Under the pieces are notes generated by a model. That model searched no databases. It had not been told where the DNA came from and worked only from the letters and a program-made list of their open reading frames with translations. The position numbers and the translations under genes are program-made. A DNA stretch of 43,467 nucleotides, taken from Chamaesiphon sp. 341R_metabat_111. GTDB lineage: Bacteria; Cyanobacteriota; Cyanobacteriia; Cyanobacteriales; Chamaesiphonaceae. How positions within the stretch are numbered: the first letter of the stretch is position 1; each line of letters opens with the position of its first letter. The stretch is taken from positions 1 through 43,467 of the forward strand of contig JANXVE010000019.1 in NCBI GenBank assembly GCA_025351825.1, in the 5' to 3' direction. This document shows, piece after piece, positions 8,484-41,836 of the stretch.

Positions 8484-9764
8484 ATGATGAAGATAGGTAA
8501 TTTGCGTCGCTTTCTAGTTGGTGGATTGGTAGGGCTAGTATTGACAGGAGTGGTGAGCTGTCTCAAATCTCCTAGTAGCAGCACGCCCCAATTAGAATTT
8601 TGGACGATGCAGCTTCAACCCAAGTTTAATGACTATTTCAAAGATGCGATCGCTAAATTTGAAGTTGCCAATCCAGGCATTAAAGTCCACTGGGTAGATG
8701 TGCCGTGGGGTGCGATGCAGGGCAAAATTCAAGCAGCAATGGGTGCCAAAACTGCGCCCGATGTCGTCAATCTCAATCCTGATTTTGCGATTCAACTCGC
8801 CGCTAAAAATGCCTGGTTGGATCTCGATCCTATTTTAACCAAAGGCGAGAATAAGGAATATATCCCCAGCATCTGGCAAGCTGGCACCCTCGACGGCAAA
8901 GCTTTTAGTTTTCCCTGGTACCTCACCACCAACGTGACAATCTACAACCAAGAGCTACTTACCAAGGCTGGTGTAGTCAAGCCGCCGACTACCTATCAAG
9001 AACTCGCCCAAGCAGCCAAACAAATCAAAGAGAAGACGGGCAAATACGCCTTCTTCACTACCTTCGTACCTGAAGATACCAACGATGTGCTCGAATCCTT
9101 GGTTCAAATGGGCGTGAAACTAGTTGACAAACAAGGCAAAGCTGCCTTCAATACCCCCGCTGGCAAAGCCGCCTTTCAATATTGGGTAGATCTTTACAAG
9201 CAAGGCTTACTGCCCAAGGAAGCACTCACCCAGGGACATCAACAGGGCATCCAACTCTATCAAGCTGGTGAAACCGCGATGCTCTCCGCAGGGGCACCAT
9301 TTATTGATACGATCGCCAAGAATGCACCTCAAATCGCCAAAGTCTCCGCCGTCGCCCCCCAAATATCTGGGCAAACGGGTAAAAAAGGCGTAGCTGTAAT
9401 GAATCTGGTGATTCCCCGCAGCACGAAGATGTCGGAAGCCGCTGTGAAGTTCGCGCTATTTGTAACCAACGCCAACAATCAGGTTGCTTTCGCCCAAGCT
9501 TCAGACACCTTACCGTCCAATATCAAAGCTGTGGCAGAATATAAAACGAAGCTAGCTAGTAGTAATGATAAATCAGCTCTGGCGCAAGGCAAATCGATCG
9601 GTGCGGAACAATTGTCCCAATCGGAGATCTTAATTCCCCCATTGAAAAATCTCAATCTGTTGAAGAAGTCGATCTATGAGAATCTCCAAGCAGCGATGTT
9701 GGGTGAAAAAACCGTCGAGCAAGCCGTAACGACTGCGGCGGCTGATTGGGATGCTGGCAAGTAA
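8484..9764 (+). CDS. ABC transporter sugar-binding lipoprotein (family 1 solute-binding)
   Basis: About 426 residues from the ATG at 8484; in-frame GTG codons at 8469 and 8472 are possible but would put five residues before the signal peptide. The N-terminus is a lipoprotein signal (LRRFLVGG, then LTGVVSC) with Cys as the lipidated residue. The mature protein begins LEFWTMQLQP and contains VHWVDVPWGAMQGKIQAAMG, KTAPDVVNLNPDFAIQLAAK and FPWYLTTNVTIYNQELL, all typical of MalE/UgpB-type carbohydrate-binding proteins. No permease or ATPase gene is adjacent, so the partner components lie elsewhere. The substrate cannot be told from the sequence. Confidence 0.88.
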   Translation: MMKIGNLRRFLVGGLVGLVLTGVVSCLKSPSSSTPQLEFWTMQLQPKFNDYFKDAIAKFEVANPGIKVHWVDVPWGAMQGKIQAAMGAKTAPDVVNLNPDFAIQLAAKNAWLDLDPILTKGENKEYIPSIWQAGTLDGKAFSFPWYLTTNVTIYNQELLTKAGVVKPPTTYQELAQAAKQIKEKTGKYAFFTTFVPEDTNDVLESLVQMGVKLVDKQGKAAFNTPAGKAAFQYWVDLYKQGLLPKEALTQGHQQGIQLYQAGETAMLSAGAPFIDTIAKNAPQIAKVSAVAPQISGQTGKKGVAVMNLVIPRSTKMSEAAVKFALFVTNANNQVAFAQASDTLPSNIKAVAEYKTKLASSNDKSALAQGKSIGAEQLSQSEILIPPLKNLNLLKKSIYENLQAAMLGEKTVEQAVTTAAADWDAGK

Positions 9765-9897: not shown

Positions 9898-9935
9898 TGT
9901 GTTGGGTTTCATTCTTCAACCCAACCTACAGATCT
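9898..9935. repeat. Dispersed palindromic repeat, GTTGGGTT/AACCCAAC family
   Basis: The perfect arms GTTGGGTT and AACCCAAC flank the loop TCATTCTTC, and CCTACAGATCT follows. Nearly identical copies occur at 26279-26314, 30288-30325, 33718-33755 and (inverted) 35272-35304. It abuts the 3' end of ppk1 and overlaps its stop codon by two bases. Confidence 0.8.
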
Positions 9936-12090
9936 AATTAACCGCCATATCCATTAATATCTGTTGTGTACTTTGATCCTCGGAACCAAATTGAGGACGA
10001 CGCTGAATGTAACTGCCATCGGCTTGCATATCCCAAGCTTGACGATTGTCAGCTAACATAATTCCCAAGATTTCTTGGAGATCGTTTGAGATTTCTGCAT
10101 CTTCAATTGGTGTAATTACTTCTACTCGTCGGTCGAGATTTCTAGTCATCCAATCGGCACTACCGATGAAGATTTTAGTATCGCCGCTATTGTGGAAATA
10201 GTAGATCCGCGAATGCTCTAGAAACCGCCCGATGATACTAATTACGCGGATATTTTCGCTCACGCCTGGAACACCTGGACGGAGACAGCACATGCCCCGA
10301 ATGATCAGATCGATCGAGACTCCAGCTTGGGATGCTCTGTAGAGATTGGCGATCGTATTTGGATCTACAAGTGCATTCATTTTAGCCACGATCCGACCAG
10401 TTTTACCTGCTTTACAATGATCGATTTCTTGTTGGATTAACTTCTCAAATGATTCGCGAGAATTGACGGGTGAGACAATTAACTTGCGATAGGAACGTTG
10501 GAGCGAATAGCCAGTCAGATAATTGAACAAATCTGTCAGATCTGCGCCTAGTTCGGGGCGACAACTAAATAGACCAACATCCGTATACAACTTAGAAGTT
10601 TTGGCATTGTAATTGCCTGTACCAATATGCACATAACGCCGAATTTTATCATCTTCCCGCCGGACAACTAATACCACTTTAGTATGTGTTTTAAGTCCGA
10701 CTAATCCATAAACAACATGTACACCAGACTGTTCCAATTCTCGTGCTAAATTAATATTATTCTGCTCATCAAATCTAGCTTTAAGCTCGATCAGGACTGA
10801 AACTTGTTTGCCATTTTCAGCAGCCTTAATTAAAGATTTCAAAATGTGTGAATCTCCCGTCGTCCGGTAGAGCGTCATTTTAATCGCTAGTACCTTCGGA
10901 TCGGTTGCAGCACAGCTAATAAATCGTTCGACTGTATCTGTAAATGATTGATAGGGGTGATGAACTAAGATATCTTGCTTGGCAATTAGATTAAAAAAGT
11001 TGCCGCCATCTTCAGTTGCTTTTAATCGTCGGAAAGATGCTGGCACAACCGCATTCCACGGTGGATCTTTTAGTTCAGGTACAGGTAGTGATAAAAAAGA
11101 GATCACATCACCTAAACCCAACATGCCACTAACTTCATACAGATCCGCCGCCGCAACTTCTAGTTCCTCTTGCAACATCTGCCGAATCTGGCTTGGCATC
11201 GCTGAGTCTACCTCCACTCTTACCGTCGAGCCACCTTTGCGCCGCTTCCGCAGTCCGTCTTCGATAGCGAGGAGTAAATCCTCAGCTTCATCTTCCTCGA
11301 CGCTGATATCGGCATTTCGCGTGACTCGGAAAGTGTAGCAATCTTGGATATTCATCCCTGGAAATAGGGATTCCAAATTGTGTGCGATCAATTGTTCGAG
11401 GGGAATTCCCGTCCAAATTTGGGAGCATTCTGGACGAGCCTGGAGTGGGTTGGCTGAGTCGATTACTTGTAAATCTGTAGGTAAAACGATAAAGCGCGGC
11501 AAAACTTTTGGCACCTTAACTCTGGCAAATAATTCTTCCCCTGTATCGGGATGTTTAATCACTACGGCGAGGTTTAAACTGAGGTTGGAAATATAGGGAA
11601 ATGGATGCCCAGGATCGACGGCTAAAGGCGTAAGCACGGGGAATATTTGTTCTTCAAAATAAGTCTGAAGATAGTTGCACTGCTCTTGGTTTAAATCGTA
11701 ATAATCGAGCAGGTAAATTCCTTGAGCGATTGTGGCGGGGCGAAGAACTGTCTCAAAGTGATGATGTTGCTTGGTAACTAGCTGTTGAACTCGATCTCTG
11801 GCTATCGCCAGTTGCTCTGCTGGCGTGCGCCCATCTGGAGTTAGTTTGCTGACTTTTGCCTCGATTTGCTCTTTAATTGCCGCAATTCTCACCATGAAAA
11901 ATTCATCCAGGTTCGAGCTAAAAATTCCCATGAATTTTAGCCGTTCGAGTAATGGTGTCCGCTCATCCATCGCTTCATTGAGCACGCGGGCATTGAATTC
12001 CAACCATGTCAATTCCCGACTGATGTAGTACTGAGGATCGGTAAAATTGATGTTCGATGAATGAGTTGCAGGTGATTTTGAGACAGTCAT
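9934..12090 (-). CDS. ppk1: Polyphosphate kinase 1
   Basis: 718 residues, the usual length. The enzyme reversibly transfers the terminal phosphate of ATP to polyphosphate through a phosphohistidine. Seen here: the N-terminal ISRELTWLEFNARVLNEA motif, LDEFFMVRIAAIK, the catalytic-domain segments DPKVLAIKMTLYRT and KTHTKVVLVVRR with the likely phospho-accepting His, then HIGTGNYN, and the second histidine region LEHSRIYYF followed by IGSADWMTRNLDRRVEV. It is divergent from the coiled-coil pair, sharing a 257-base intergenic region. A dispersed GTTGGG repeat sits directly at the 3' end and could act as its terminator. Confidence 0.96.
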   Translation of the reverse strand: MTVSKSPATHSSNINFTDPQYYISRELTWLEFNARVLNEAMDERTPLLERLKFMGIFSSNLDEFFMVRIAAIKEQIEAKVSKLTPDGRTPAEQLAIARDRVQQLVTKQHHHFETVLRPATIAQGIYLLDYYDLNQEQCNYLQTYFEEQIFPVLTPLAVDPGHPFPYISNLSLNLAVVIKHPDTGEELFARVKVPKVLPRFIVLPTDLQVIDSANPLQARPECSQIWTGIPLEQLIAHNLESLFPGMNIQDCYTFRVTRNADISVEEDEAEDLLLAIEDGLRKRRKGGSTVRVEVDSAMPSQIRQMLQEELEVAAADLYEVSGMLGLGDVISFLSLPVPELKDPPWNAVVPASFRRLKATEDGGNFFNLIAKQDILVHHPYQSFTDTVERFISCAATDPKVLAIKMTLYRTTGDSHILKSLIKAAENGKQVSVLIELKARFDEQNNINLARELEQSGVHVVYGLVGLKTHTKVVLVVRREDDKIRRYVHIGTGNYNAKTSKLYTDVGLFSCRPELGADLTDLFNYLTGYSLQRSYRKLIVSPVNSRESFEKLIQQEIDHCKAGKTGRIVAKMNALVDPNTIANLYRASQAGVSIDLIIRGMCCLRPGVPGVSENIRVISIIGRFLEHSRIYYFHNSGDTKIFIGSADWMTRNLDRRVEVITPIEDAEISNDLQEILGIMLADNRQAWDMQADGSYIQRRPQFGSEDQSTQQILMDMAVN

Positions 12091-12136: not shown

Positions 12137-12165
12137 TTGACACCGATCGCCAGCTAAGATACAAT
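12137..12165 (+). promoter_or_regulatory. Sigma70-type promoter for the coiled-coil gene pair
   Basis: TTGACA at 12137-12142 and TACAAT at 12160-12165 are separated by exactly 17 bases, close to the consensus. It points towards the coiled-coil gene, predicting a 5' leader of about 175 bases before the ATG at 12348. The leader contains no obvious riboswitch. Confidence 0.65.
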
Positions 12166-12347
12166 AGTACTAGTCAATTAGCAAAAGCGGTCAATCTTGA
12201 CCCCCACAGATCAAATATATCGGTATTTGAGTCGATCTGGCGGAGTATTTGGGCACAATTAGTCAGTAGTTGAGATGATCTCAAACTATACCTGCTGCTG
12301 AGTAGGCTAGTTTTCATGCGTTCTTAATCATTTAGGCAGATAAATTT

Positions 12348-13337
12348 ATGGCAATAGTAAAAGACAGTAAGGCTCAGATTCTCACCGAACTCGATCGCAT
12401 TTTAGCAGAGCAATATCGACCTGGTTCCAAAGTTGCCACCAAAGAAGAAGAAGCGCAATTAGTCAAGAACAAAGCAATTGTTACTAAAGCTGCTACTTAT
12501 ACCGTTGACACGATCGTCAAAGGCATGGCAGATTTACAGTTAGAATTTGGGAGTATTGTTAGTGGCTTATCTGACAGATTAACCGTTGAAGTTGAGAAGC
12601 TAACCGAAGTCAAACAATCGATCGAGATCGAAACCCAACATCGCGCCGAACTCCAGCAGGTTAGAGTTGTTGCCGATGCCCTGCACATCATCACCCAAGA
12701 GCATCAACAGAGCCTAAAAGCGATCGAACAGCAGCTCCTACTCGATCGAGAAAAACTCGCCCAAGAGCAAGTAAATCTCCGCAAACAGTGGGAACGAAAC
12801 GAGCGAGAATACACCGAGCAGCAGACAGAACTAGCCTCAAATATCACCAAAGAGCGTCAAAAAGAGCAAGACGAAGTTCAGTATAAAGTGCTGCGTGATC
12901 GACAATTACAGACAGATGTCTACACAGAAGTCAACCGCAACCAAGAGCAAGAAATTCAATCACTCGATCGAGAAAAACAAAAGCAGTGGAAAGAGCGCGA
13001 GAAATTCTTGAAAGACAATCAAAAACTTGCTGATGAAAACGCAGCTAAAGTGATTGCCTTCCCTGCGGAGCTAGAAGAAGCAGTGAAGAAAGCCAGGGAA
13101 GACGCAATTAAAGAAACTAATAGTAATGAAAAAGTTAAAGCCGATCTAGTCGAGAAGGAATGGGAAGGCGGCAAGCAGGGCTATGAGATGAAGATTCAAT
13201 CATTGGAACGGGTAATCGATCGGCAAAATGAGCAAATTATTGCTATTACCGAGCAGTTACAAACAGTGATGAATCAAGCCCAATCATTAGCGATGATAGC
13301 TTTTGAAACTTCCGCCAAGATTAGCGAGAAGAATTAA
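12348..13337 (+). CDS. Coiled-coil protein, first of a tandem paralogous pair
   Basis: 329 residues, function unknown. After a short N-terminal motif (KAQILTELDRILAEQ) and a segment LQLEFGSIVSGLSDRL, residues from about 90 to 235 are almost uninterrupted charged heptads rich in Glu, Gln, Lys and Arg, a long coiled coil. A shorter C-terminal coil follows (IQSLERVIDRQNEQI, then QAQSLAMIAFE). There is no signal peptide or membrane segment. The same three blocks occur in the next gene, which starts 44 bases after this stop, so the two arose by tandem duplication and are probably co-transcribed. Coiled-coil-rich proteins encoded in neighbouring pairs are known in cyanobacteria to form filaments; assignment to that group is inference only. 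Confidence 0.75.
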   Translation: MAIVKDSKAQILTELDRILAEQYRPGSKVATKEEEAQLVKNKAIVTKAATYTVDTIVKGMADLQLEFGSIVSGLSDRLTVEVEKLTEVKQSIEIETQHRAELQQVRVVADALHIITQEHQQSLKAIEQQLLLDREKLAQEQVNLRKQWERNEREYTEQQTELASNITKERQKEQDEVQYKVLRDRQLQTDVYTEVNRNQEQEIQSLDREKQKQWKEREKFLKDNQKLADENAAKVIAFPAELEEAVKKAREDAIKETNSNEKVKADLVEKEWEGGKQGYEMKIQSLERVIDRQNEQIIAITEQLQTVMNQAQSLAMIAFETSAKISEKN

Positions 13338-13381
13338 TTTAATCACTGCTGTCAATATCCGCACCCAAAAGATTGTAAATC

Positions 13382-14476
13382 ATGGCAAAACCAACAGATA
13401 AGAACACCAAAGCCGAAATTCTCACTGCATATAACCAGCTTGCAGACGAGAAAAAAGCCCTCGAAACTGAAGTAAAAAACATTCAAAAGCAAGCAGCGAC
13501 ACCTACACCAGTAGCGACACCTATCCCAACAGCCAAAATAGCTAAAGACGAGCCAAAATCCACCATGAACGCAGTACCGAACCAAGACAAGGTAAACAAT
13601 ACTATTGCTAATTTAGATAGCCTTCAGCTTGGGTTTGGCTCCGCTGTCAGTCAATTATCTGAGAAGTTAACTACAGAAGCCGCAAAACTAGCCGAGATTC
13701 GGGAAGGTGTGACGACGGAGATTGCTGACTTGCAAACACTGCATGGTTTAGCAGTTGATGACGACACCTTTGAAACACTAATCGAAGACTATCAAACTAG
13801 TTCCAAAGCCTTTGATGCAGAATTGAAAGCACGACAAGAAGCACAGCAACAAGAGGTGCAGAGTTTAACTAAAGCTTGGCAAAAAGAACAAGAGCAAAAT
13901 GGAATTACGATTAAAGAGCGAGTCGAACTCGATCGCAAAAGTAGCCAGCGCGAAGTTCAAGAATACAAGTACAATCTCGATCTAGAACGCAAGATCGATC
14001 GAGAGCAACATGAACAGCAGCAGGCGGGCTTGTATTACGAACTCGCCGAAACCAAAGAAGTTCAAGAAAAAGCCTGGACAGAGCGAGAATTAGCCTTGTC
14101 AGATCGTGAAAAACTCTTCCATGAAGCTAAGGATAAAGTTGCTGCTTTTGTCCAAGACAAAGAAAAAGCGATCGAGAAAGCCAAGGGCGAAGGCAAAGGC
14201 ATCGCTACTTGGCAAGCTAAGATCAAATCGGATCTATATAGTAAGGAAGTCGAAGGTCAGAAACGTTTTTATGATGGCAGAATCGAATCGTTGGAAGATA
14301 CAATTAGCAATCAAAATGAACGCCTCAATAGTCTCTCGAAACAGCTAGAAGCAGCCCTGAAGCAAGTTCAAGATCTGGCAGTCAAAGCGATCGAAGGTTC
14401 GGCAAATGCTAACTCTTATCAAACGTTGAAAGAGATTACTTTAGAGCAGGCTAAGTCGCAAGCTAAGACTAAATAA
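13382..14476 (+). CDS. Coiled-coil protein, second of a tandem paralogous pair
   Basis: 364 residues. It mirrors its neighbour: N-terminal KAEILTAYNQLADEKKALE, the shared block LQLGFGSAVSQLSEKL, a long coiled coil from about residue 125 to 270, and the C-terminal IESLEDTISNQNERL with QVQDLAVKAIEGSA. It differs by a Thr/Pro/Ala-rich linker (TPTPVATPIPTA) near residue 40 that is absent from the first protein. No catalytic motif is seen. A strong hairpin at 14495-14530 closes the two-gene unit and separates it from the NACHT gene. A structural role, for instance a heteropolymer of the two proteins, is the simplest inference. Confidence 0.75.
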   Translation: MAKPTDKNTKAEILTAYNQLADEKKALETEVKNIQKQAATPTPVATPIPTAKIAKDEPKSTMNAVPNQDKVNNTIANLDSLQLGFGSAVSQLSEKLTTEAAKLAEIREGVTTEIADLQTLHGLAVDDDTFETLIEDYQTSSKAFDAELKARQEAQQQEVQSLTKAWQKEQEQNGITIKERVELDRKSSQREVQEYKYNLDLERKIDREQHEQQQAGLYYELAETKEVQEKAWTERELALSDREKLFHEAKDKVAAFVQDKEKAIEKAKGEGKGIATWQAKIKSDLYSKEVEGQKRFYDGRIESLEDTISNQNERLNSLSKQLEAALKQVQDLAVKAIEGSANANSYQTLKEITLEQAKSQAKTK

Positions 14477-14494: not shown

Positions 14495-14530
14495 CAGAAA
14501 CCCGACTTCTTCCGAGAAGTCGGGTTTCTG
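14495..14530. terminator. Hairpin terminator, ACCCGACTT family
   Basis: A perfect 16-bp stem, CAGAAACCCGACTTCT paired with AGAAGTCGGGTTTCTG, around a TCCG loop. It lies 19 bases after the stop of the second coiled-coil gene. The same core sequence forms the hairpins at 1280 and 41864. Confidence 0.75.
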
Positions 14531-14612: not shown

Positions 14613-15296
14613 ATGAGTTTTGCTGTGATTGGAACAATTGCTACGACAATCGCGCCTTGGTTAGGTGAATGGGCAATCGTGGGATTAGCAGGGAAGCTTG
14701 GAGAAGGTGCTGTAAGGCATTTTAAGCCTGATGAAATAACATTGTTGCTGAAACAGTCGATCGCCACAGCAGAAGCCGCACAGCCGAAAACAGGTGCGTT
14801 ATTCGATCGATGCCATTATGACGGATATAAAGGTGTCAAAAAGTTTCTAGAGCAGTTTTTCCAGTCGGGCGAGGTGCTGAAGGAATTGCAGAAACCTTTG
14901 CAGGATGAGGGTAAACCTGATTTAGCTATTTTGATAGCTGCATTTAAGGCATCGGCACAATATCATCCAGAAGCCAAGTATTATCTCCTGAATTTGCTGC
15001 CATTGTGGATGGAAACGTTTGTCGAAAGTTATTTCGAGCAAATTAAGGGGATTTGCTTCCAGGTAGCGAAGGTGCAATATCTGGAGCAATTGGCACAGCG
15101 AGTGGATGATGTGAAGTTTGTTGGGATTGCTGTACCCGAGGGGAAAGTAGTAAAACAAGAGGTTTTAGCACAGATTTTTGTGATGCCAGATGTGCGAAAT
15201 CAGAAACCATCTGAACTTATTGATGAAGTTTTGGCTGAAATGAAGATTTTGAGAAATGAAACAAAGCAGAGTTCACTTCTCAGAGAGCAAAAATAA
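14613..15296 (+). CDS. N-terminal region of a disrupted NACHT NTPase
   Basis: 227 residues as an open frame. It begins with a hydrophobic helix (MSFAVIGTIATTIAPWLGEW) and continues with a helical domain containing VESYFEQIKGICFQVAK and DDVKFVGIAVPEGK, LAQIFVMPDV. This type of region precedes the NACHT domain in large cyanobacterial STAND proteins. The TAA at 15294-15296 is followed in the same frame by residues that lead straight into a NACHT P-loop (see the next feature), so I read this as the front part of one gene split by a nonsense mutation rather than as an independent protein. It might still be expressed as a truncated product. Confidence 0.65.
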   Translation: MSFAVIGTIATTIAPWLGEWAIVGLAGKLGEGAVRHFKPDEITLLLKQSIATAEAAQPKTGALFDRCHYDGYKGVKKFLEQFFQSGEVLKELQKPLQDEGKPDLAILIAAFKASAQYHPEAKYYLLNLLPLWMETFVESYFEQIKGICFQVAKVQYLEQLAQRVDDVKFVGIAVPEGKVVKQEVLAQIFVMPDVRNQKPSELIDEVLAEMKILRNETKQSSLLREQK

Positions 15297-15974
15297 TGGG
15301 CGATGCGCGATCGATCTGCCCCGCGAATTCCCGCTCCTAAAATTCTAAATCTGTCGCAGAAAAAAGCAGTAGTACTCGGCGCACCAGGTTCGGGGAAAAC
15401 AATGCTGGTGAGTTATTTTGCCCTGATGCTGTGTGAAACGGCACAAAGCGATCCTACTCAAATCGGCTTATAAAAGGATGCCGATTATCTGCCGATTGTA
15501 GTACGAATTCGGGATTGGATCTTCTTGAAGCCACCGATGGGATTGTTGGAGTACTTGCGATATTATGCCGAAACTAATTTATGTACAAAAGAATTACCTA
15601 CCGGATTTTTTGAGCATTGGTTAGAGCGGGGTAAAGCGTTGATTTTGCTCGATGGTTTAGATGAGGTAGTAGATGAAACGCAGCGGTGCAAACGCAAAGT
15701 GGCGGATCAAATCGAGACATTTTTGTATCGCTATCAATCCAATCCAGCCGTAATTACTTCCCGCCCAGCGGGGTATCGGTGGGATTTTTTCAATCTCGAT
15801 GAGTTTCCTCATTATACGCTGGAATCTTTCGATGATAAGCAGGTGGCTATGTTTATCGACCATTGGTATGATAGCCAGATTCCAGATGATAAGGCAAAAG
15901 CAGAGCAGCGCAAATCTGATTTACATAAGGCATTCGATCGCAATGAGCGGATTAAACTGGGAGCATCCCAATAG
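15297..15974 (+). pseudogene. Disrupted NACHT-domain STAND NTPase (middle part)
   Basis: The frame of the preceding gene continues here after its TAA. It shows a Walker A (LGAPGSGKTMLVSY), then a second in-frame TAA at 15471-15473, then IVVRIRDW, the Walker B with downstream acids (ALILLDGLDEVVDE), the sensor-like AVITSRPAGYRW and YTLESFDDKQVAMFI. These are the ordered NACHT motifs of NLR-like proteins, several of which act in bacterial antiphage defence. The match stops at NERIK near 15950, just where families continue with an LxxNPLLLT helix; the rest (repeat or sensor domains) is gone and insertion-sequence remnants follow. Two stops plus a lost 3' end make this a clear pseudogene. Confidence 0.85.
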
Positions 15975-37912: not shown

Positions 37913-37984
37913 CTCGTACGCCTATTGAAGATCCAATTCAAGCCAACATCTGACATTTTTTCCTGTTCCCCAGTCCCCACACTC

Positions 37985-40900
37985 ATGACATCACCCTTCA
38001 CCACTGCTGAAATCGCTGCCCAAGGTATCAAACCTAACGAATACGAGGAAATCGTCCAAAGACTCGGCAGACACCCCAACAAAGCCGAACTAGGCATGTT
38101 TGGGGTGATGTGGTCGGAACACTGTTGCTATAAGAATTCTCGTCCGCTTCTGAGTCAATTCCCCACCACTGGTAAGCGTGTGCTTGTCGGCCCAGGGGAG
38201 AATGCTGGGGTGATCGATTTGGGTGATGGATTGCAACTCGCATTTAAAATCGAATCCCACAATCACCCTTCGGCTGTGGAACCATTTCAGGGCGCAGCCA
38301 CTGGTGTAGGTGGTATTCTGCGCGATATTTTCACGATGGGTGCGCGGCCGATTGCGATTCTCAATTCGCTCCGATTTGGCGATCTCAAGGATGCCAAAAC
38401 GCGACGGTTATTTACAGGTGTGGTGGCAGGGATTTCTCACTATGGGAATTGCTTATTAGGTTCTGAAAGTTTTATTTGGAAGGATACACAAGGTATTCAC
38501 TTTGATACGATCGGGAATTTTGTCACGACCCATTTGCCCGCTGGCACGGATACCTTAGAACTCGCGCCTGGGATTGAGACACTATCTGTAGATCCCAAAA
38601 CTAATCGCAGTAACTGGCAACCTGTCAGCCGGATTTTCAAGCGTCAAACTAATACGCTGATTAGTATTCGTACTTCCCTCGGACGCACGCTGACAGTCAC
38701 GCCGGATCATCCGATGTTGCGGATTGAGGCTGAAGATAAAATGCGGATTCGTTACGCCCAAACCCTGCGCGTAGGGGATGATTTACCAATCCTTCAGCAG
38801 CTACCAGAAAGTCAGGGGCAGCCTCAGATTCTAGATCTAATTGAGACAATCGATCGTACTCTTCATGCCGATAAAGATATTTATATCGCGCTCCCAGACT
38901 CATGGCAACCCACCGATCTGATTCGCACTACCCTCGAATTATTTGAACCATCGATCCAAAAACGCAACCACTACCTCAATACTAAGACTTTCCCACTCGA
39001 TCGATTCCTCAGTCTCGAACAGCTTTTGGGACTAGAACAAGTCCTCAATTTCTCTCGTGCCGATCTCAAAATCGGGCAACACGGTAAGGATGATTGGATT
39101 CCGGCTTTGATTAGACCAAACGCGGCTTTCGCTCGTCTGTTAGGCTATTTCGTCGCGGCTGGGATGGTTTCGCCTGCTGGGAATATTTATCGAATCTTCT
39201 TGAATTTCAGCCATCATGAAACCGCAGCGGCTACAGATGCGATCGAAATTCTTCAAAGTCTAGGCATTCCCGCCAATCCGCAACAGCGTACTTCTGGGAT
39301 GGCGGTTTGCGTCTCTTCCTGGCTCTTAGGTTATCTCTTCACCCAGGTATGGAAGTGTGGCAACGAATCCACCCACAAACGGATTCCTGATTTTGTTTGG
39401 GATTGGAGTGCCGAACTTCAGCAGGAATTGCTCAAGAGCCTGATTCGGAATAATCCGACTATCCCCAATCCTACTGGCGGAGCGGCTCAGGACAAAATTT
39501 TCTGTTCTACTTCCAGCCGTCAATTATTTGACCAAATCCTACTATTGCTCCAGAATCAAGGCACCAATCCTCAAGTCCATCATCGCCCCGCATCCGTGGG
39601 ACAGATTAAAGGACGAGAATTTCACTATGCTGCCTTGTGGCAAATCGAGGTTCGCCGTGATTGGTTTAGCACTATCGCCAAAGGCGAAGCTATGTCAACG
39701 GCTTCCTTCAACTCCGCTCTGCTAGGGCAGACGCTCCGCACCAGAAATTTAGCATTAAACAAACCCTCAGCAAACCGCCTCGAAGCTGGTGGTGCTGCGC
39801 TTATCGATAGCATCACTACCGTTAGCACGATGGGAACGGTCAAAATTCAGAACATCGCTACCCATAATGTGGAAACTTGCGATGTCTACGATGTCGAAGT
39901 CGATAACACCCACTTATTTGTTACCAGCGGCGGCATTATTACCCACAACTGCGTTGGCGTTCCCACTGTCGGCGGCGAAGTTTATTTCGACCCCGCTTAT
40001 TCTGGCAATCCGCTGGTAAATGCGATGGCATTGGGATTGATGGAAACCTCCACTATCGTCAAATCCGGCGCATCGGGAATAGGTAATCCCGTCCTCTACG
40101 TCGGCTCAACTACCGGACGGGATGGCATGGGTGGAGCCAGTTTCGCCAGTGCCGAATTGACCGCCGAATCGATCGATAATCGCCCCGCCGTTCAAGTGGG
40201 CGACCCTTTCCTCGAAAAATCTCTCATTGAAGCCTGTCTCGAAGCCTTCAAAACTGGTGCAGTCGTCGCCGCTCAAGATATGGGAGCCGCTGGAATCACC
40301 TGTTCCTGCGCTGAAATGTCTGCCAAAGGTGGTGTCGGCGTAGAATTTGACCTCGATCTCGTCCCCGCCCGCGAACCTGGGATGGTGCCCTATGAGTACC
40401 TGCTGTCCGAATCCCAAGAGCGGATGTTATTTGTCGCCCATAAAGGACGCGAACAGGAACTAATCGACATCTTCGAGCGGTGGGGACTACATGCCGTCGT
40501 CGCTGGCAAGGTAATCGAGGAGCCAATCGTGCGAATTCTGTGGCAAGGATCGATCGCCGCTGAAGTCCCAGCTACTGCCCTAGCAGACAACACCCCGATT
40601 TATCAGCGAGAAGTGATGGCAGAAGCTCCAGAATATGCCCAAACAGCCTGGGCATGGACAGAGGGTCGATTACCCCCAGCCACCGCCCAAGGCATCGAGA
40701 TTCAGGGCAAATCCCACAGTTGGAACGACGTGCTGTTGACCCTACTGGATACACCTTCGATCGCTTCCAAACGCTGGGTGTACCGTCAATACGATCATCA
40801 AGTCCAAAATAACACCGTCATGCTCCCAGGTGGTGGCGATGCCGCAGTGATCCGCATCCGCCCCCTAGAGCCGATCCAAGGTCGCCAAGCCATCATTAAT

Positions 40901-41836
40901 AACCCCAACCTCGGTGTAGCCGCTACCGTAGACTGCAATCCCCGTTACGTCTACCTCAACCCCTACGAAGGCGCGAAAATGGTCGTCGCCGAAGCCGCCC
41001 GAAATCTGAGCTGTGTCGGAGCCGAACCCGTGGCGGTGACTGACAATCTCAACTTCGGCAGCCCCGAAAAACCGATCGGCTATTGGCAACTCGCCAACGC
41101 CTGTAAGGGTCTATCCGAAGCCTGTAGCGCATTCGACACTCCCGTCACTGGCGGAAATGTCTCTCTCTATAATGAAACCTTCGATTCTGACGGCAAGCCC
41201 GTCCCGATTTACCCCACCCCAGTCGTCGGCATGATCGGCATCGTCGATGATATTACCAAGATCTGTGGTCAAGGTTGGCAGAGTGCGGGCGATCGAATTT
41301 ACCTCATGGGTGTACCGACAACCCCAGGGTACCCACAAGGGGCACCCCTACAAGTTACTTTAGGAGCATCGGAATATTTAGCGATGCTTCACCAAACGAT
41401 CGCCGGACAGCCGCCAGGAGTGAATTTTGACCTCGAACTCAAGGTTCAAGCCGTTTGTCGTCATGGGATTCGCCAAGGCTGGATTAAGTCCGCTCATGAC
41501 TCCTCTGAGGGTGGTTTAGCAGTAGCTCTGGCTGAATGCTGTATCTCTGGTAATAAGGGAGCAGCAATTAGTATCGGTGAGATCGATAATCGCTGGGATA
41601 CGGTGTTATTTGGTGAAGGTGGCGCGAGAATTGTCGTCTCGATCGATCCTACTCGTCAAGCAGAATTTGAGGCTTATTTAGATGCACATGTTACTGATGC
41701 TTGGCAATATCTAGGTGCTGTTGGTACTGCTGATGACCATTTCCAAATAACTGCTGAAACCGGATTAGTCGATCTGGACATCACCGCAATTACTGAAACT
41801 TGGGCGACTGCGATCGAGCGTCGTTTAGATGTTTAA
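37985..41836 (+). CDS. purL: Phosphoribosylformylglycinamidine synthase subunit PurL, intein-containing precursor
   Basis: 1283 residues from the ATG at 37985; the frame extends 20 codons to a TTG but [20 protein letters not shown] is the normal start. After removal of a 500-residue intein the mature protein is 783 residues, the usual size. The enzyme makes FGAM from FGAR and glutamine-derived ammonia in purine synthesis, with PurQ and PurS. Extein marks: [37 protein letters not shown] and, across the splice site, HYGN joined to [14 protein letters not shown]. The ATP-binding C-terminal half is complete ([26 protein letters not shown]). A small palindromic repeat lies in the coding region at about 41324-41352. 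Confidence 0.96.
38450..39949 (+). other. Intein within PurL, 500 residues, with degenerate LAGLIDADG domain
   Basis: The intein begins with Cys1 ([10 protein letters not shown], block A) and ends HN (GGIITHN, block G), followed by Cys+1 of the C-extein. Block B is [13 protein letters not shown] with Thr84 and His87; block F is [17 protein letters not shown]. All residues for class 1 splicing are present. The inserted region has two LAGLIDADG-like motifs, LLGYFVAAG at 230-238 and LLKSLIRNN at 327-335, but the acidic residue expected near the end of each is Ala237 and Asn335. Homing activity is therefore probably lost while splicing is kept, which purL requires. Confidence 0.95.
41324..41352. 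repeat. Dispersed palindromic repeat inside the purL coding region
   Basis: The inverse of this stretch matches 16609-16635 with two differences over 27 bases. It contains GGGTACCC and GGGGCACCCC. In the purL frame it encodes PGYPQGAPL, inside a loop just before the conserved LGASEYLA. The reading frame is kept. Confidence 0.55.

Follow-up and report, generated by a model that had tools for sequence, protein, structure and literature searches.

Two adjacent genes for coiled-coil proteins, here called A and B, raise the question of what a tandem pair of such proteins builds, if anything, in the cyanobacterium Chamaesiphon. They lie in a stretch of 43,467 nucleotides from Chamaesiphon sp. 341R_metabat_111, which is referred to below as the window. 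A preliminary description, made from the DNA letters, had treated the pair as a self-contained unit of unknown function and considered its products to be candidates for either filament-forming cytoskeletal proteins or a structural part of an accessory or defence island. Here, we propose that A and B quite probably represent the Chamaesiphon lineage of the ZicK/ZacK family, that is, paralogous subunits of an intermediate-filament-like heteropolymer whose relatives elsewhere would be inducible through an XRE regulator and an M78 metallopeptidase. Both open reading frames of the preliminary description are present, and the features around them are collected in Table 1.

Table 1. Features of the window in and around the A-B pair
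Feature	Position	Strand	Remarks
ppk1	9934–12090	-	Polyphosphate kinase by reading; divergent from the pair, likewise in the Chamaesiphon relatives L035 and L188
Promoter of the A-B unit	12137–12165	+	TTGACA-17-TACAAT; 11 of 12 consensus bases matched
Untranslated leader	12172–12347	+	Approximately 175 bases, as placed by promoter position and start codon
Gene A	12348–13337	+	329 aa, intact coiled-coil open reading frame; alr4504 orthologue by synteny (presumably ZicK)
Gene B	13382–14476	+	364 aa, intact coiled-coil open reading frame; alr4505 orthologue by synteny (presumably ZacK)
Palindrome CCCGACTTCT	14501–14524		Interspersed in the genome, 8 copies in all
Broken NNH2-NACHT gene	14613–15974 (to about 16000)	+	Outside the A-B unit; stop-interrupted, decaying STAND-type gene

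The three sequence blocks said to be shared by the two proteins are found in both and in the same order, namely KAQILT, LQLEFGSIVSGLSDRL, and IQSLERVIDRQNEQI in A and KAEILT, LQLGFGSAVSQLSEKL, and IESLEDTISNQNERL in B. The accompanying statement that these blocks surround coils of different sequence needs correction, however: similarity between A and B spans their full length at 30% identity (101 of 335 positions, E 6e-35), and the blocks are thus the best-kept parts of paralogues rather than islands between unrelated coils. Because composition alone can make coiled coils look alike, the similarity was compared with 300 shuffles per protein in which each residue was kept in its own heptad position. 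On a profile of B relatives, A scored 220.9 bits, whereas the best shuffle reached 32.0; B scored 231.6 bits on the A profile, with a shuffle maximum of 28.1. By these comparisons, A and B are true paralogues. Neither protein matched a Pfam or NCBIfam family above its curated cut-off. A profile search of solved structures returned coils such as SARS-type spike heptad repeats (E 0.003 or worse), which were rejected as coiled-coil look-alikes.

Both AlphaFold models and hydrophobic periodicity identify A and B as helical proteins rich in coiled coils. The monomer model of A contains helices at residues 2–22, 32–253, and 260–328 (mean pLDDT 80.8), and that of B at residues 7–37, 71–121, 127–338, and 347–359 (mean pLDDT 76.5); pTM was 0.28 for both, a value expected of single rods and uninformative on assembly. 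A two-part design is common to the two proteins, in which a first coil with a hydrophobic period of 3.50–3.52 is followed by a long rod with a near-hendecad period of 3.62–3.64. These values exceed the 99% level of permutations for the first coil and for the whole rod, and the test was passed only in part when the thirds of the rod were scored singly. Cysteines are absent from both proteins of the window, and the C-terminal tail of B, QVQDLAVKAIEG, is near-invariant across 26 sequences.

The pair is widespread and is inherited in tandem. In a survey of 292 cyanobacterial genomes across the phylum, B had matches in 42 (E 1e-6 or better), all within the window's order, and A and B were both present and adjacent, with A first, in 39 of these 42; gaps between the genes were measured for 30 pairs of this survey. 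A scan of GTDB species genomes, from which the best 80 of 290 relatives were kept so that the named loci lean to Nostocales, returned in this best set only cyanobacteria, the closest being two metagenome-assembled genomes of Chamaesiphon (85 and 79%). Identity of A and B to members of Nostocales is approximately 50–56%. Both genes are present in 78 of the 80 named loci, separated by 26–225 bases; one of the remaining two begins at a contig end (L036) and the other has a lone B (L107). Eighteen further genomes, of which 17 belong to families other than the window's and none belongs to f6, were compared over stretches of up to 16 kb; A-B is the only feature that all of them share, and its neighbours vary. 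The pair thus behaves as the self-contained unit originally proposed, and its conservation in tandem, A before B, is broad within the order.

Not every genome of the order carries it. In the family of genome G024, taken as Nostocaceae (f6), 150 of 217 genomes matched the profile at 1e-10 and 67 did not, with matches in 11 of the 13 genomes of G024's genus, and a phage-derived profile (PHROG 29668, discussed below) had no match in 129 of 340 related genomes at 1e-4. Since many genomes of the order are without a match, A-B is not an indispensable cytoskeleton. Sixteen genomes were followed up, mostly chosen for single or broken matches and including the eight single-match genomes of G024's family. 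An intact pair was found in one (G547), a lone intact B in another (G356), A at a contig end in three (G480, G481, and G429), and broken or truncated pieces in ten, while G151 had no match, its earlier survey match having contained four stops. The ten decayed remnants suggest that loss tends to end in broken fragments and not in one functional gene; the lone intact B genes of G356 and L107 are two exceptions in which B has persisted without A. In two deletion derivatives, a 5′ part of the pair is fused to the B tail; the fusion is free of stops in G427 (L151) and contains stops in G396 (L155). Homologues occurring singly and scattered, which the preliminary description had named as evidence against a unit, were not encountered apart from these two lone B genes and the broken relics. 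A maximum-likelihood tree was built from 72 proteins. Its A sequences (33) and B sequences (37) are each confined to one side of a single branch, supported at 97/95 and 99/99, and two phage proteins lie outside both groups (100/100, long branches). As judged from this tree, A and B stem from one old duplication and then travelled together.

The surroundings of the pair provide a link to characterized proteins. To the left of A, genes for PhoU, SphS, and SphR lie in that order and divergently in 57 of the 78 named pairs, so that these loci have two adjacent coiled-coil genes beside phoU-sphS-sphR, the arrangement of the alr4504/alr4505 locus discussed next; the count was made by cluster and order without requiring immediate adjacency, the clusters being defined by single-linkage BLAST and the gene names assigned by reading protein sequences at a few of the loci. 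According to passages of PMC7564538, phoU, sphS, and sphR of Nostoc 7118/7120 are all4501, all4502, and all4503. Because the relatives share this synteny, A and B are assigned as orthologues of alr4504 and alr4505, by the synteny of relatives rather than by direct comparison with PCC 7120; the window's own neighbour is ppk1, and homology to these relatives ties the window to the alr4504/alr4505 locus. The products of alr4504 and alr4505 increase jointly in proteomic data, as detailed below. We take Alr4504 and Alr4505 of Anabaena sp. PCC 7120 to be ZicK and ZacK, whose polymerization is reportedly nucleotide-independent and which are said to have a role in linear trichome shape. Passages of a review describe ZicK and ZacK of Anabaena as strictly interdependent heteropolymers, and passages of PMC8262864 describe them as associated with the elongasome and binding SepJ. 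It is very probable that A and B are counterparts of this co-assembling filament pair and belong to the described heteropolymer family, for which Chamaesiphon is most likely a new host lineage. The suggestion of a filament-forming cytoskeletal pair is therefore well supported by the synteny with alr4504/alr4505, presumably ZicK/ZacK. On the other hand, the neighbouring pairs that it cited from Fischerella found no support: passages of PMC7002697 describe one Fischerella filament protein, Fm7001, of the coiled-coil-rich class, and the interdependent pair is reported for Anabaena.

In the model favoured here, each protein is almost entirely helical and would begin with a short helix, continue through a heptad coil that carries the LQL-FG block into a rod of approximately 210 residues, and end in a conserved tail. 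A and B, which are probably co-transcribed, would pair through their matching rods, and A-B pairs would extend via their conserved ends into filaments that may serve as a scaffold for the envelope or for other machinery of the cell. Chamaesiphon is not known to form trichomes, and the wide distribution of the pair within the order includes relatives of unicellular genera such as Chamaesiphon and Aliterella; trichome shape is therefore neither the general function of the pair nor its basic job, and such a role could not carry over unaltered to Chamaesiphon. Occurrence in relatives of these genera also fits an alternative in which A and B assemble no further than a discrete coiled-coil heterodimer serving as an adaptor, the Anabaena filaments then being lineage-specific or a product of tagging. 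Although the structure predictions, which give only long single helices, are compatible with such an adaptor, conservation of N- and C-terminal segments beyond the rod speaks against it, and we consider the adaptor unlikely.

With regard to expression in the window, the near-consensus promoter described ahead of A is present. A scan for such promoters found 2 sites overall where 3.3 are expected by chance and is thus not significant alone, but a Chamaesiphon relative (L035, from 6582) has kept both hexamers at the same place while the spacer has diverged, which supports the promoter. The hairpin said to close the unit also exists, but as an interspersed repeat: the genome holds 8 copies of the palindrome (another one in the window lies at 1286–1308), the hairpin is not followed by a T run, and the palindrome 3′ of B in relative L034 is another one (by eye). 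It is thus no feature of the A-B unit, and a role as terminator was rejected. On the other side of the pair, a protein 83% identical to the ppk1 product of the window adjoins it in L188. A general phosphate link, as phoU-sphS-sphR in Nostocales and ppk1 in Chamaesiphon might imply, was dismissed because other families have other neighbours. Elsewhere in the window (37925–41836), a 1303-aa frame resembles PurL with an in-frame intein, the insert ending in HNC (by reading).

The gene that follows B had prompted the idea of an accessory or defence island that includes the pair. NNH2 and NACHT domains do adjoin the pair, the NACHT piece scoring 26.6 bits, just below the cut-off of 26.7; however, the gene is broken by stop codons, L034 and L188 have a different gene after B, and the pair's neighbours vary in other families. 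PADLOC models had no match in A, B, or the NACHT pieces. Membership in a defence island together with this gene is thus disfavoured and appears highly improbable.

A different set of genes accompanies the pair in many other families. Among the 18 further stretches, all of which are outside Nostocaceae, a related XRE protein is present in nine and an M78 peptidase in seven (domains by Pfam), and the HExxH motif of M78 is kept in seven aligned sequences. Among the matches listed with both positions, M78 and the pair are no more than 10 kb apart in 50 of 80 genomes and 8 of 17 families; genomes within one family are not independent, so that a binomial calculation on these counts gives no fair probability. 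Before A, at least two copies of a 16-base palindrome, TTGA-N8-TCAA, are found in 9 of the 18 loci and one copy in a tenth (L180); other spacings from 4 to 12 gave 0 of 18 loci, with a background of 0.036 per region, so that only spacing 8 stands out. L175, L180, L181, and L182 have three such sites next to the XRE start, facing a longer gene run that ends in A-B; in L175, this run is interrupted by a reversed gene. Between the palindromes and A-B, these four loci encode a small protein and a protein of approximately 240 aa, and three of them also encode one of approximately 130 aa; no Pfam family above cut-off was found in those of the extra proteins that were scanned. An operator cluster is absent from L174, L184, L187, L189, and L188, all outside Nostocaceae, and L184 has a different XRE-type regulator, divergent and upstream of the pair (9240–9614). 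Single sites in the named loci had spacing 8 in 2 of 79, spacing 9 in one, and spacing 11 in two (L034 was excluded from this count as its A gene is cut by a contig end). A close XRE match (E 2.5e-53 or better) was obtained in all seven operator genomes tested, three of which (G008, G213, and G495) are independent of the profile, which was built partly from G002, G145, G109, and G111. None of five f6 genomes tested had an XRE match at 1e-10. A genome-wide operator scan allowing two mismatches was not clearly above the control in most of 12 genomes, and no regulon was definable. The window copy is without the operator and without an adjacent XRE/M78 switch: its genome has only a distant XRE match (1.8e-33), the best site in its promoter is 5 mismatches off, and its 300-base region holds one site at spacing 7, one at spacing 10, and none at spacing 8.

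The relatives therefore combine an HTH regulator, an M78 peptidase with HExxH, and promoter palindromes, as in the CapH/CapP and DdrO/IrrE systems, and the best PADLOC match of the M78 protein is capP (3.9e-18). CapH/CapP is a repressor-protease switch. In DdrO/IrrE of Deinococcus, the peptidase cleaves its repressor on stress, according to the abstracts of PMC10904395 and PMC7907104. The XRE and M78 genes together with the palindromes suggest induced expression of the pair, whose relatives elsewhere appear, from gene content, to be under a stress-type repressor and protease. In these families, the XRE regulator would act at two or three TTGA-N8-TCAA sites and its M78 partner would relieve it on stress, so that the pair would be expressed on demand.

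This arrangement raises the possibility, which we hold to be doubtful, that the pair is mainly an inducible scaffold for stress or DNA damage under a CapH/CapP- or DdrO/IrrE-like switch, serving repair, the envelope, or the anti-phage response, with shape as a secondary role. In addition to the regulator, peptidase, and operator counts given above, protein abundance data are in line with such a scaffold. Passages of a proteomic study of Nostoc 7120 (PMC8147232) report that BMAA raises the hypothetical proteins of alr4504 and alr4505 4.35- and 20-fold, respectively, and that its authors tie them to DNA metabolism via network data; in passages of PMC7354497, Alr4505 is raised in two other growth conditions, with RecA approximately 3-fold up alongside. 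The existence of phage homologues, one of them preceding TerD/TerC, points in the same direction. However, the window's genome has no operator and only a distant XRE, four loci outside Nostocaceae besides L188 are without the operator cluster, M78 is not close to the pair in several families (f3, f4, f11, f48, and f55), M78 relatives also occur where no pair was detected (e.g., G070, G118, and G610), and A and B themselves have no PADLOC hit.

A phage family, PHROG 29668, is related to the pair along its full length; its profile matches B at 2.8e-15 over residues 1–341 and A at 5.8e-4 over residues 5–322; at 1e-4, it matched 211 of 340 related genomes and 0 of 14 control genomes. A clear hit to a phage family had been named in advance as unfavourable to the preliminary reading of the pair, and such a match does exist, but the family has no known function. 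Individual phage relatives are gp268 of Bacillus phage G and M3_0082 of Lysinibacillus phage LysYB1, also found in LysYB2, each record holding a single match. On both the A and the B profiles, the scores of gp268 and of the LysYB1 protein exceeded those of all 300 shuffles. In LysYB1, the coiled-coil homologue directly precedes genes for TerD, TerD, and TerC (L137, 4983–8142), forming a phage-borne Ter-like cluster. Neither P0002 nor alignment A1 recovered a relative from viral_contigs, gp268 recovered only phage G itself from the same set, and a plasmid search with gp268 had no match.

These observations may be brought together in a tentative evolutionary reading, in which the ZicK/ZacK-type heteropolymer is fundamentally an inducible filament serving stress or anti-phage responses, and the lineages of Nostocaceae and Chamaesiphon have since placed the pair under other control and turned it to use in cell shape. 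In many families outside these two lineages, an XRE repressor on tandem TTGA-N8-TCAA operators would silence the pair and a CapP/IrrE-like metallopeptidase would release it; phages carry single-copy homologues, one of them in a TerD-TerC cluster. We regard this reading as conceivable, and the ZicK/ZacK-family assignment of A and B remains the explanation that we prefer.

An apparent orphan pair thereby becomes a testable family, and presumed bacterial heteropolymer subunits are seen as paralogues from a single duplication, a situation that parallels the pairs of tubulins or keratins. What is new here comprises the distant homologues present as single copies in Bacillus phage G and in a Lysinibacillus phage, which may offer a single-subunit relative for biochemistry, and the XRE and M78 genes near the pair with promoter palindromes in many other families, which hint at when the pair is used. 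In the literature available without subscription, where the regulator was only partly targeted, neither the single duplication nor the regulator-protease genes with palindromes were found in print, and the same holds for the phage homologues of the pair; this is weak evidence.

Compared to known systems, the relatives of the pair resemble CapH/CapP and DdrO/IrrE in having an XRE-type regulator beside an M78 HExxH metallopeptidase and palindromes at the target promoter. They differ in that the presumed target is a coiled-coil pair, and the arrangement is seen in relatives rather than in the window. PHROG 29668, gp268, and M3_0082 share full-length homology and the same end motifs with A and B, but the phage proteins occur as one match per record, and the LysYB1 copy stands before TerD-TerD-TerC. 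In passages of PMC7002697, Fm7001 and other cyanobacterial coiled-coil-rich proteins belong to a filament-forming class to which A and B are similar, although Fm7001 is described singly and the likeness is one of class. The closest counterpart is ZicK/ZacK. The window's pair differs from it in its Chamaesiphon host and its ppk1 neighbour, and polymerization would here be expected by analogy; the interdependence of ZicK and ZacK fits the joint retention of A and B, and the two lone B genes do not agree with strict interdependence. In both cases, the two coiled-coil genes are adjacent and in tandem, and by synteny the relatives of A and B occupy the alr4504/alr4505 locus, with phoU-sphS-sphR divergent to the left.
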